A DNA stretch of 50,751 nucleotides from Blastopirellula marina (lineage in GTDB: Bacteria > Planctomycetota > Planctomycetia > Pirellulales > Thermoguttaceae): assembly GCA_020721965.1 (NCBI GenBank), contig DYLS01000021.1, positions 1 through 50,751 of the forward strand. The letters are read 5' to 3'. Shown here one piece after another: positions 48,596 to 50,751 of the stretch (the stretch's first letter is position 1; every line of letters begins with the position of its first letter). The notes beneath the pieces are model-generated. The model was not told the DNA's origin, did no database searches, and was given only the letters and a program-made list of their open reading frames with translations. A program made the position numbers and the translations under genes.

Positions 48596-48729
48596 AGAAG
48601 TTCATCGCGGTGGCCATCCGCACCACGGTGCTCCTCCCCACCAATCCCGCGCACGAGGACCCGCTCGACGAACTCTCGGAGACCAAGGCAGGCCATGCAA
48701 CTTCGTCCCTACCAACAAGCCGCGGTTGA
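48592..48729 (+). CDS. 45-residue ORF bridging rusA and the helicase
   Basis: ATG 48592 overlaps the RusA stop (ATGA), and the ORF ends 35 bp inside the helicase gene, which starts at 48695 in another frame. The product, MKKFIAVAIRTTVLLPTNPA, then a polar tail, has no recognised domain. The tight overlap on both sides suggests either a translational-coupling ORF that carries ribosomes from rusA to the helicase or chance; the first is favoured by the ATGA geometry. Confidence 0.45.
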   Translation: MKKFIAVAIRTTVLLPTNPAHEDPLDELSETKAGHATSSLPTSRG

Positions 48730-50751
48730 CGCCGTCTACGAGCACCTCCGTGCTCGCGACGACAGCCCGTGCGTGGTGATCCCCACGGCCGGAGGCAAGA
48801 CCCCGGTCATGGCCACCATCTGCCGCGACGCCGTGACGCGTTGGGACGGCCGGGTGCTCGTGCTGGCCCACGTCAAGGAATTGCTCGAGCAGGCGGCCGA
48901 CAAGCTGCGAGTCATCTGTCCCGACGTCCAATTCGGGGTCTACTCGGCTGGGCTGCGCCGCCGGGACACGGACCACACGGTGATCATCGCCGGCATCCAG
49001 TCGGCATACAAGCGGGCAGCGGAATTAGGGCCGTTCGACCTCGTCATCGTCGACGAGTGCTTCCCTGCCGGCACGAAGATCTCCACCCCACGTGGCCATA
49101 TAGCGATTGAAGATGTGTCCATCGGGCAGCCTGTCCACACAGCCCTCGGCGTGGGCGAGGTCGAAGCGATCTCCGCCAGACCCGCCCACAAGCTACTTGA
49201 GCTGGAGTTTGAGAATGGTGGAATCCTGCGATGCACCCCCAACCATTTGCTCTTCACCGAACAAGGATGGCGAGAGGCGCAGACCCTGGAGGTGGGATCG
49301 CGTCTTTTCAGCAGAGAAGACGTGCAAATATTGCGGAGCCTTGATGCGTCCGAGAATCTACACCAACCCAGATGGCAGCCCCAGGGTGTGCCAGTCGGAA
49401 AGCGAGTGGAATGCCCAGGAGTATTGTTCGGCGAAGTGCGGCGCACAGACGAGGCGGAAACCGCGCCCGCCGAAGCCGTCGTCATGGCGGTCGGTCAGAA
49501 TTCATTCCGCCAAAAAATGGCGCGAATGTTGCGGGCGCGAATTCCGTCCGTGGATCAAGCTGGACGCGACAGGGAAGATGATCAGTTATCTGCACGAGCA
49601 CCTCTGGCGCAAGCAACGTTTTTGCTCGATCTCCTGCGCCAAGAAGGCAGAAAATGCCATGTGGATACCAGGCGTTCGAGCGCGAGTCAGCCAGACCCTC
49701 AAACAGCGTGGCCATGCGCCGGTTGCGCGCGGCGGCAACGGGAAGCTTACCATGCCACAGATTCGACTGCTCACAATCCTTGGGCCACCGTGGTGCCCGG
49801 AGTTGGTGGTCTCCACGGGGCGGCCTCGTCCGTTTGGGTTGCCGAAGAATGTCAAGATCGACCTTGCCCATCCGCAAAAGAAGATCACCATCGAACTGGA
49901 CGGTCCGTCGCATCAGTCGCCCAGGAAACGCGAGGCCGACAAACGGAAGGTCTCATACTTGCTTCGCAACGGGTGGTGCGTATTACGGCTATCGAATGCC
50001 AAAGCCCTGTGGCTGTGTTCAATCTGCAAGTCGCAGGACACCCTTCTTACTATGCTGGCGGAGTACTTGCACACAACTGTCACCTGATTCCGCCGGACGG
50101 CGATGGGATGTACCGCACCTTTCTGGCCGAGGCGAAGGTCGTCAACCCACACCTGCGTGTCATTGGCCTTACAGCCACGCCATTTCGCCTGGCCAGCGGG
50201 CCAATCTGCACGCCAGACGGGTTGCTTAACCATATTTGCTACGAAGTCGGTGTCAAGGAATTAATTCACAACGGATACCTCTGCCCTCTAATAACGAAAG
50301 TTGGAAGCAACAAGGCAGACTTCGAGCGGCTACGCGTTCGCGGTGGCGAGTTTGTGGCCGACGAGGCGGAAGACTTGATGGATGCTGACAACCTCGTCAT
50401 CTCGGCATGCAGCGAGATCATCGCCTACACGCACAATCGCCGGAGCGTATTGGTGTTTGCCGCTGGAGTACGACACGGGCGTCACGTGGCCCGCGTGCTG
50501 GCTGACATTTCTGGCAAAGAGGTTGGCTTCCTTGATGGCCAGACGCCGGCTGCCGAGCGGGCGGAGTTGATCGCCCGTTTCCGCCGCGAACCGCTCCCAG
50601 GCGACCTGTTCGGCCACAGGCTGCTGCCGCTCAACTACCTGGTGAACGTCAACGTGCTGACCACGGGATTCGACGCTCCGAACATCGACTGCGTGGCCAT
50701 CCTGCGTCCCACGATGTCGCCGGGACTCTGGTATCAGATGTGCCTGGATAT
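48695..50751 (+). CDS. DECH-box superfamily 2 helicase interrupted by an intein (3' end beyond window)
   Basis: The frame starting at ATG 48695 is open to the end of the window (685 codons). N-extein (121 codons): LRPYQQAAVDAVYEHL, the Walker A variant PTAGGKTPVMA and IIAGIQSAYKRAAELG, ending FDLVIVDE at the start of motif II. A 340-codon intein (49058-50077) follows. The C-extein resumes CHLIPPDGDGMYRTFL, so that after splicing motif II reads DECH; then GLTATPFRL (motif III), VLVFAAGVRHG and TTGFDAPNIDCVAILRPT (motifs V/VI region). It belongs to the SSL2-like phage/restriction helicases. The catalytic motif is split, so the ATPase should be dead until the intein is removed. The start lacks a clear Shine-Dalgarno sequence and may be coupled to the 45-residue ORF. 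Confidence 0.92.
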   Translation, partial: MQLRPYQQAAVDAVYEHLRARDDSPCVVIPTAGGKTPVMATICRDAVTRWDGRVLVLAHVKELLEQAADKLRVICPDVQFGVYSAGLRRRDTDHTVIIAGIQSAYKRAAELGPFDLVIVDECFPAGTKISTPRGHIAIEDVSIGQPVHTALGVGEVEAISARPAHKLLELEFENGGILRCTPNHLLFTEQGWREAQTLEVGSRLFSREDVQILRSLDASENLHQPRWQPQGVPVGKRVECPGVLFGEVRRTDEAETAPAEAVVMAVGQNSFRQKMARMLRARIPSVDQAGRDREDDQLSARAPLAQATFLLDLLRQEGRKCHVDTRRSSASQPDPQTAWPCAGCARRQREAYHATDSTAHNPWATVVPGVGGLHGAASSVWVAEECQDRPCPSAKEDHHRTGRSVASVAQETRGRQTEGLILASQRVVRITAIECQSPVAVFNLQVAGHPSYYAGGVLAHNCHLIPPDGDGMYRTFLAEAKVVNPHLRVIGLTATPFRLASGPICTPDGLLNHICYEVGVKELIHNGYLCPLITKVGSNKADFERLRVRGGEFVADEAEDLMDADNLVISACSEIIAYTHNRRSVLVFAAGVRHGRHVARVLADISGKEVGFLDGQTPAAERAELIARFRREPLPGDLFGHRLLPLNYLVNVNVLTTGFDAPNIDCVAILRPTMSPGLWYQMCLD
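49058..50077 (+). other. Intein inserted between E and C of the DECH motif; splicing blocks in the helicase frame
   Basis: The 340-residue insert begins CFPAGTKISTPRGHIAIEDV (block A, Cys1), has RCTPNHLLFTEQGW (block B with the T-x-x-H at 49235-49246) and LEVGSRL, and ends VFNLQVAGHPSYYAGGVLAH then N (blocks F and G), followed by Cys+1. All residues for Cys-type splicing are present in the helicase frame. Between about 49304 and 49970 this frame is open for some 220 codons but reads as an unusual Arg/Gln/Ala-rich sequence, because the homing endonuclease is encoded in the +1 frame there. See the ORF at 49215-50087. Confidence 0.9.
49215..50087 (+). CDS. Homing endonuclease (Vsr/DUF559-like, with zinc clusters) in the +1 frame of the intein
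   Basis: In the frame +1 to the helicase, 49314-50087 encodes TCKYCGALMRPRIYTNPDGS and EYCSAKCG, then ECCGREFRPW and FCSISCAKK, two CxxC/CxxxC zinc-binding pairs. It continues VKIDLAHPQKKITIELDGPS with H next, then KREADKRKVSYLLRNGWCVL and RL: a D..E-x-D/H core typical of Vsr/DUF559-like nucleases, a group used as homing endonucleases inside inteins. ATG 49215 has GGAG 7 bases upstream and would give a 290-residue product; ATG 49107 and GTG starts are alternatives, or ribosomes may enter from the helicase by +1 slippage on CTTTTC at 49304. The stop lies 10 bp beyond the intein end. The last part overlaps block F of the intein. Confidence 0.75.
   Translation: MVESCDAPPTICSSPNKDGERRRPWRWDRVFSAEKTCKYCGALMRPRIYTNPDGSPRVCQSESEWNAQEYCSAKCGAQTRRKPRPPKPSSWRSVRIHSAKKWRECCGREFRPWIKLDATGKMISYLHEHLWRKQRFCSISCAKKAENAMWIPGVRARVSQTLKQRGHAPVARGGNGKLTMPQIRLLTILGPPWCPELVVSTGRPRPFGLPKNVKIDLAHPQKKITIELDGPSHQSPRKREADKRKVSYLLRNGWCVLRLSNAKALWLCSICKSQDTLLTMLAEYLHTTVT

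Follow-up and report, generated by a model that had tools for sequence, protein, structure and literature searches.

A helicase intein that probably carries its homing endonuclease in an overlapping +1 reading frame

Introduction

How can an intein keep its splicing domain in the frame of its host gene when the only recognizable endonuclease sequence within it lies in another frame? The question is raised by the window analyzed here, a 50,751-nucleotide (nt) stretch of Blastopirellula marina DNA (assembly GCA_020721965.1, contig DYLS01000021.1), the last 2 kb of which are occupied by a RadD-like, phage-type helicase gene that an intein interrupts. In the usual teaching, an intein is one protein whose splicing domain encloses an endonuclease domain: in canonical bifunctional inteins such as PI-SceI and PI-MtuI, the endonuclease is in frame and forms part of the excised intein. 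An initial annotation of the window, made from the sequence alone, instead assigned the two functions to different frames and offered three mechanisms: a nested gene with its own start, a frameshift-dependent product, or two compensating indels.

Our analysis indicates that this is very probably a mobile intein with overprinted coding, in which one segment would specify both a splicing intein and, from its own start, an EDxHD/Vsr-type homing endonuclease. We also think it likely that it represents a widespread and ancient intein class, in which the homing endonuclease is overprinted, its ribosome-binding site lies in conserved splicing codons, and all that is conserved of the in-frame insert is its lack of stops.

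Results and Discussion

Two proteins encoded in one segment

The helicase frame is free of stop codons from 48596 to the contig end, and within it the intein runs for 340 codons from Cys 49058 to Asn 50077 (Table 1). All of the splicing signals that the initial annotation had placed in this frame were confirmed: Cys1, a block B TxxH motif (TPNH), a C-terminal His-Asn (AHN), and the +1 Cys. The NCBIfam intein_Cterm profile scored 15.8 bits, above its cut-off of 15.6, and intein_Nterm scored 21.3 bits (E 4e-4), below its cut-off of 24.5; Pfam Intein_splicing gave an E value of 8e-6 but, at 26.2 bits, fell below its cut-off of 35.8. In the Protein Data Bank (PDB), the N-terminal splicing region matched PI-MtuI (E 1e-4) and the gp41-1 intein (E 4e-7). 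Across a 70-row alignment of related inteins, Cys1 and the block B His (H63) are invariant, as are the C-terminal H339 and N340, although an HN[CSTA] search set the limits of the rows, which makes the His-Asn invariance partly a matter of construction.

In the structural model of the intein-frame protein, the splicing halves have predicted local distance difference test (pLDDT) values mostly of 95-98 (84-98 over the first 100 residues), and the model matches the gp41-1 and MchDnaB inteins, with 30 PDB chains found at E <= 0.001. The in-frame insert between the halves is mostly at pLDDT 46-59, and no endonuclease can be recognized in this frame. Cys1 with TxxH, His-Asn followed by Cys, a Hint/intein fold, and a precise insertion with intein-free homologues together fit a class 1 intein.

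The nuclease is confined to the +1 frame, where a 290-residue open reading frame (ORF) runs from ATG 49215 to the TGA at 50085-50087. The initial annotation had it at 49314-50087: the frame and the end stand, and the start was about 100 bases too far downstream, the best-supported one being ATG 49215 with a GGAG at 49204-49207 ahead of it. The product scores 27.9 bits against Pfam DUF559 (cut-off 20.6) and matches PDB entry 3hrl in sequence (E 9e-9), with a weaker profile match to 3r3p, the homing endonuclease I-Bth0305I (E 0.011). Its model, built from a 73-row alignment, has a mean pLDDT of 87.3 and a predicted template modeling score of 0.50. The C-terminal domain superimposes on 3hrl, 1cw0 (Vsr), and 3r3p with Z scores of 9.7, 9.3, and 8.7; the top structural row for the model is a mitoribosomal protein (Z 10.2), tied within 1. 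Foldseek ranked 3r3p and 1vsr first, but at E 0.025-0.035; its Vsr/I-Bth0305I-type matches had probabilities of 0.97-1.00 and E values of 0.025-0.042. In the same 73 rows, E227 and D229 are kept in at least 90% and H233 and D242 are invariant, and these four residues may well correspond to the catalytic letters of EDxHD.

The two zinc clusters reported at first fared differently. The first (C37, C40, C71, C75) has the usual spacing of the family, while the second departs from it, with Arg at position 103. Both Cys clusters presumably bind zinc.

The same arrangement in relatives

Relatives were sought by nuclease sequence, regardless of frame, in IMG/VR, GenBank phages, plasmids, and bacterial genomes, and were classified by applying profiles for the intein N half, the intein C half, and the nuclease core to read-through translations. 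Of 106 loci examined, window included, 103 could be classified: 85 of a first set of 88 (80 of the 112 relatives found in IMG/VR, seven further loci, and the window), all 16 of a genome set, and two added loci, one in Vibrio phage 1.088.O (L114) and one in an SNF2-type protein on a Rhodovastum plasmid (L115). GenBank phages gave 42 records matching at E <= 0.01, of which the analysis covered six with helicases (L013-L017, L114) and a free-standing one from Rhizobium (L116). L029 repeats L012, L030 repeats L011, and L090 is very probably L013 (CP-T1), leaving 100 of the 103. The unclassified loci are L038 and L067, truncated within the N half by contig ends, and L095, where the nuclease gene stands free.

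In all 103 classified loci, both splicing halves lie in one stop-free frame and the nuclease lies in the +1 frame. The central claim of the initial annotation, that endonuclease and splicing domains occupy different frames, is borne out. The intein frame was located by read-through translation, which makes its lack of stops an observation. None of the 103 has the canonical in-frame arrangement, which the initial annotation had named, if seen in homologues that share these flanks, as the sign of a recently decayed or miscalled sequence; nor is any a fractured gene with a split intein, as one frame joins the halves in each. When 99 relative genomes were searched for an in-frame endonuclease with a typed two-frame hybrid query, the only matches, apart from the window locus, were to the intein N half, in five other genomes.

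The classified loci include isolate phages, an isolate plasmid (L115), and the genome of a Roseiconus nitratireducens isolate (L099); the closest relative, with 60% identity in the best segment, comes from a Phycisphaerales metagenome-assembled genome (L098). The hosts of the inserts are mostly helicases, and a same-strand overlap of about 200-300 codons is conserved in phages of Proteobacteria and Corynebacterium and in metagenome-assembled genomes of several phyla. Such recurrence indicates that the arrangement is neither an error nor a one-off. In six loci (L050, L061, L063, L070, L076, L108), seemingly in other DExx-type proteins, the residue after His-Asn is Ser rather than Cys.

Two free-standing relatives of the nuclease were also seen. 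The one on viral contig L095 (3623-4426) encodes 267 residues from its own ATG, and no intein halves were detected there. The other, a weakly matching gene of Rhizobium phage RHph_TM61 (L116, 1033-1719), is annotated as a homing endonuclease and lies inside a tRNA gene cluster.

Start and stop signals of the nested gene

Loci of the window's branch encode the conserved Asn/Asp-Gly turn ahead of block B as AAT/GAT-GG, which gives a +1-frame ATG, and the intein codons upstream hold GGAG or GAGG at Shine-Dalgarno (SD) distance. In four Vibrio phages (L013, L015, L016, L017), the signal lies just past block B, as GAGG and then ATG. We compared these signals with expectation by holding the intein protein fixed and resampling its codons, for the 37 of 78 loci in which the motif was present and the nuclease frame was open at that point. 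Of the 37, 32 have the ATG (17.0 expected under synonymous recoding), 25 have a strong SD (9.8 expected), and 23 have the two together (3.7 expected). A simpler test agrees, though less strongly: first ATGs pair better with an SD than background codons do (P 2e-4). The other end is likewise tuned: the rare Leu codons CTA/TTA at residue N-3, before Val-His-Asn, create a TAG stop for the nuclease in 32/62, against 8.8 expected; in a minority of loci (16/75) that includes the window, the stop lies 10 nt inside the extein.

These signals bear directly on how the nuclease would be made. A programmed +1 (or -2) frameshift could yield an intein-N/nuclease fusion with no separate start, since the intein N half and the nuclease follow one another on a single mRNA, in frames 0 and +1, and a well-placed shift would join them. 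We nevertheless consider this unlikely: the SD and ATG are selected beyond the needs of the intein protein, the free-standing family member L095 has its own ATG, and no conserved slippery site stood out in the start regions inspected, though no systematic search for one was made. Because the SD-plus-ATG pair is selected beyond intein coding, a nested gene with its own start is the better supported of the two.

Selection on the two frames

The overlap imposes a simple rule: a third-position T in a nuclease codon, followed by a codon starting with AA, AG, or GA, produces a stop in the intein frame. In the window alone, T occurs at 0 of 31 risky T/C-ending nuclease codons and at 43 of 101 such codons elsewhere in the ORF (P ~3e-8). 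The initial annotation cautioned that an open frame alone is weak evidence; the openness here goes beyond chance. Across 62 clusters of relatives (80% core identity), wobble T is found at 0 of 863 risky NNY codons versus 2011 of 3931 safe ones, and about 442 intein-frame stops would be expected from wobble usage where none is seen. The nuclease frame is open by construction between flanking stops in this cluster test, so its own openness is no evidence; its ORF extends beyond the core in 101/101 loci. The third frame, said at first to be open over much of the region as well, is indeed open in the window at 49582-50229, yet it has stops over the tested overlap in 62/62 clusters, window included, with 12.2 on average.

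Constraint at the protein level is distributed differently. Over 25 disjoint pairs, mean core amino-acid identity is 0.69 when the nuclease frame is read, against 0.45 for the intein frame and 0.46 for the third; the near equality of the last two means that, stops aside, the in-frame insert is kept no better than an unused frame. Counted over 30 disjoint pairs, substitutions at intein codon positions 1/2/3 number 224/174/360 around block B, where the intein is constrained, 1440/752/585 in the core, where the nuclease is, and 347/271/350 in the tail, where both are; HN[CSTA] and DEC served as intein limits in this count too, so these residues are partly preselected. Selection passes from the intein frame to the nuclease frame along the insert and is then shared in the tail; the avoidance of stops shows that both reading frames are maintained.

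Mobility and empty sites

The Corynebacterium phages phi673 and phi674 offer a comparison of an occupied and an empty site. Only phi673 carries the intein, as an insertion of exactly 906 nt with Cys at the +1 codon, where phi674 has Val; the exteins are of equal length (1605 nt) with 17 differences. Of these, 16 fall 3′ of the insertion, a bias that would be expected of co-conversion. The same site is empty in the related Vibrio phages 1.024.O and 142E35-1. In Vibrio phages 268E42.1, K459, PS65A.1, and 13VV501A (L118, L119, L120, L123), it holds inteins of 143-150 residues, with no room for the nuclease described here.

The window's own genome has a second, uninterrupted phage-type helicase on contig C93 (521-880; L125), with 63% identity in the N-extein, the same upstream gene order (Sak4-like, DUF669-like), and, at the intein site, the unbroken sequence VDESHLIPP. 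All 20 homologous helicase loci examined are uninterrupted at the intein site, 19 of them taken from one search that had more matches than loci taken.

Exact presence and absence in sister phages implies recent transfer, which speaks against the nuclease frame being a relic, that is, an old unexpressed endonuclease gene kept by chance in a splicing intein. The far higher core identity in the nuclease frame than in the intein frame and the conserved catalytic residues point the same way. Although the altered second zinc cluster of the window would suit a relic, and a search seeded on nuclease sequence leaves decayed copies under-represented, we regard this explanation as very improbable.

Further inserts were noticed in these helicases. 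Vibrio phages PS65A.1 and 13VV501A (L120, L123) have a further intein-like insert at Walker A, between GK and T, giving two occupied sites in one helicase gene. In L012 (2286-6092), the helicase with the nested-nuclease intein has, farther downstream, what seems to be another in-frame intein-like insert, of larger size (CLDEKTEILTSDGF...VTGN).

A model for expression and homing

The observations fit the following scheme for an intein with a nested, independently started nuclease. Ribosomes that start at the helicase would make one long precursor, in which the intein halves are predicted to come together while the insert that separates them, modeled mostly at low confidence, is probably unstructured; splicing would then remove the intein from between Glu121 and the DExH motif's +1 Cys. 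Ribosomes initiating at the SD/ATG within the block B-region codons would read the +1 frame, and their product would be a separate two-zinc-knuckle EDxHD/Vsr-type endonuclease. This enzyme may cut intein-free alleles at the DExH site, leading to the whole segment being copied in.

Several observations weigh against this scheme. The insert is not uniformly disordered, as residues 181-200 are predicted to form a helix with pLDDT 85-88. The full SD-plus-ATG signal is absent in 14 of the 37 loci, a strong SD is present at only 47% of first ATGs versus 25% of background codons, and ATG is absent from the region in 2/62 clusters; the fixed-position start test took in 37/78 loci, the others starting elsewhere or not being classifiable by motif. 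No Foldseek match of the nuclease model reached E <= 0.001. Finally, the window's second zinc cluster is off the family spacing: at position 103, where 90% or more of the 73 aligned relatives have Cys, the window has Arg, and C105 and C106 (49527-49532) are adjacent where relatives have CxxC. Functional drift of the window's copy is possible.

Two further explanations deny one or the other product. In the first, the intein frame is mere read-through without splicing, and the helicase tolerates the insert, as has been proposed for the ShiLan insertion discussed below. This is hard to credit, given the invariance of Cys1, the block B His, and the C-terminal His-Asn in 70 relatives, the high-confidence modeling of both halves and their match to solved inteins, and the position of the insert, which splits the DExH motif of a helicase. 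The second, that two compensating indels or sequencing errors have displaced a normal in-frame intein endonuclease, which a one-base shift at each end of a 380-contig draft assembly makes imaginable, has a negligible probability and can be excluded for practical purposes, along with a pseudogene, because every classified relative, isolate phages, plasmid L115, and Roseiconus L099 included, has the same +1 offset with no stop, and wobble positions avoid intein-frame stops throughout the nuclease.

Relation to known systems

Like PI-SceI and PI-MtuI, the intein described here has a splicing domain with an extra segment inserted between blocks B and F; unlike in those proteins, the in-frame insert is not the nuclease. 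Dassa and colleagues reportedly described, in 2009, fractured genes in which a free-standing Vsr-like endonuclease gene lies between the halves of a split intein. Those loci resemble ours in having an EDxHD/Vsr-type endonuclease within the intein locus as its own polypeptide, whereas here the intein is one unbroken ORF that the nuclease overlaps.

EDxHD is a recognized homing-endonuclease family (PMC3943268, PMC6083498). Its member I-Bth0305I, a mobile intron protein according to the PDB, resembles the nuclease in catalytic-domain fold (Z 8.7) and sequence profile (E 0.011) and differs in that here there are zinc knuckles and the nuclease lies inside an intein in another frame. The ShiLan domain/Pacc40 insertion in phage methylases contains an out-of-frame HNH endonuclease (Arsenault et al., 2025; PMC11855218); its authors report no detectable splicing domain, a GTG start, and no ribosome-binding site found. 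PMC12613952 adds one more methylase with a ShiLan-like out-of-frame HNH insertion. That system and ours share a homing-type endonuclease out of frame in an insertion that is open in the host frame, a phage setting, and a proposed selfish spread. In contrast to ShiLan, with its HNH nuclease and methylase hosts, there is here a full splicing domain, a DUF559/Vsr-like nuclease of the EDxHD type, a selected SD and ATG, and about 100 loci, mostly in helicases.

Among the papers listed by searches of open-licence PMC, none describes an intein with its endonuclease outside the splicing-domain frame; a preprint on actinobacteriophage inteins with "non-canonical architecture" (bioRxiv 10.1101/2025.01.02.630785) and Gorbalenya 1998 ("Non-canonical inteins") may hold precedent. 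As far as searched, then, the parts are known and the arrangement is new.

In this arrangement, the splicing and nuclease functions would share DNA but not protein, and nuclease dosage would be uncoupled from host-protein dosage. It offers a natural system in which to study same-strand overlapping genes where selection shifts abruptly from one frame to the other, and it suggests how the free-standing endonucleases of split-intein loci could arise. If our interpretation is correct, bifunctional inteins and fractured genes would have a natural intermediate in these inteins, and some inteins recorded without an endonuclease would carry a hidden one. Annotation of the helicase frame alone misses the nuclease, which is what happened in five phage records that we examined. 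The phi673/phi674 pair makes homing directly testable.

The host gene and its surroundings

The helicase gene starts at about 48695 and continues past the contig end. Its whole frame matches NCBIfam RadD_YejH (E 7e-69) and the PHROG 16 DNA helicase (E 7e-65), and the intein splits its DExH motif directly after VIVDE, between Glu121 and the +1 Cys.

Table 1. Coordinates of the helicase, intein, and nested nuclease features in the window
Feature	Position	Strand	Evidence
N-extein, RadD-like/phage DEAD-type helicase, to ...VIVDE	48695..49057	+	NCBIfam, PHROG; 20 uninterrupted homologues at the site
Intein, helicase frame, 340 codons, stop-free	49058..50077	+	Profiles; invariant Cys1, block B His, His-Asn
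N-terminal splicing region, blocks A and B	49058..49315	+	Model; PI-MtuI and gp41-1 matches
Shine-Dalgarno-like GGAG within intein Leu-Glu codons, 7 nt ahead of the ATG	49204..49207	+	Sequence; selected in relatives
Putative nested homing endonuclease ORF, 290 residues, ATG to TGA	49215..50087	+ (+1 frame)	DUF559; 73-sequence alignment; model pLDDT 87.3
First Cys cluster, C37, C40, C71, C75	49323..49439	+	Translation; presumed zinc binding
Second Cys cluster, C105/C106, C137, C141; Arg replaces the first Cys of relatives	49527..49637	+	Alignment; presumed zinc binding
DUF559/Vsr-like catalytic core, D216, E227, D229, H233, D242, W254	49716..50000	+	DUF559; conserved columns; Vsr and I-Bth0305I folds
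C-terminal splicing region with blocks F and G, ending in AHN; also encodes the nuclease C-terminus	49964..50077	+	Profile; model; constraint on both frames in relatives
C-extein of helicase (CHLIPPDGDG...), continues past contig end	50078..50751	+	Translation; uninterrupted homologues

Upstream of the helicase lie phage recombination genes, which encode exonuclease VIII-like, Sak4-like, DUF669 single-strand binding, and RusA proteins.

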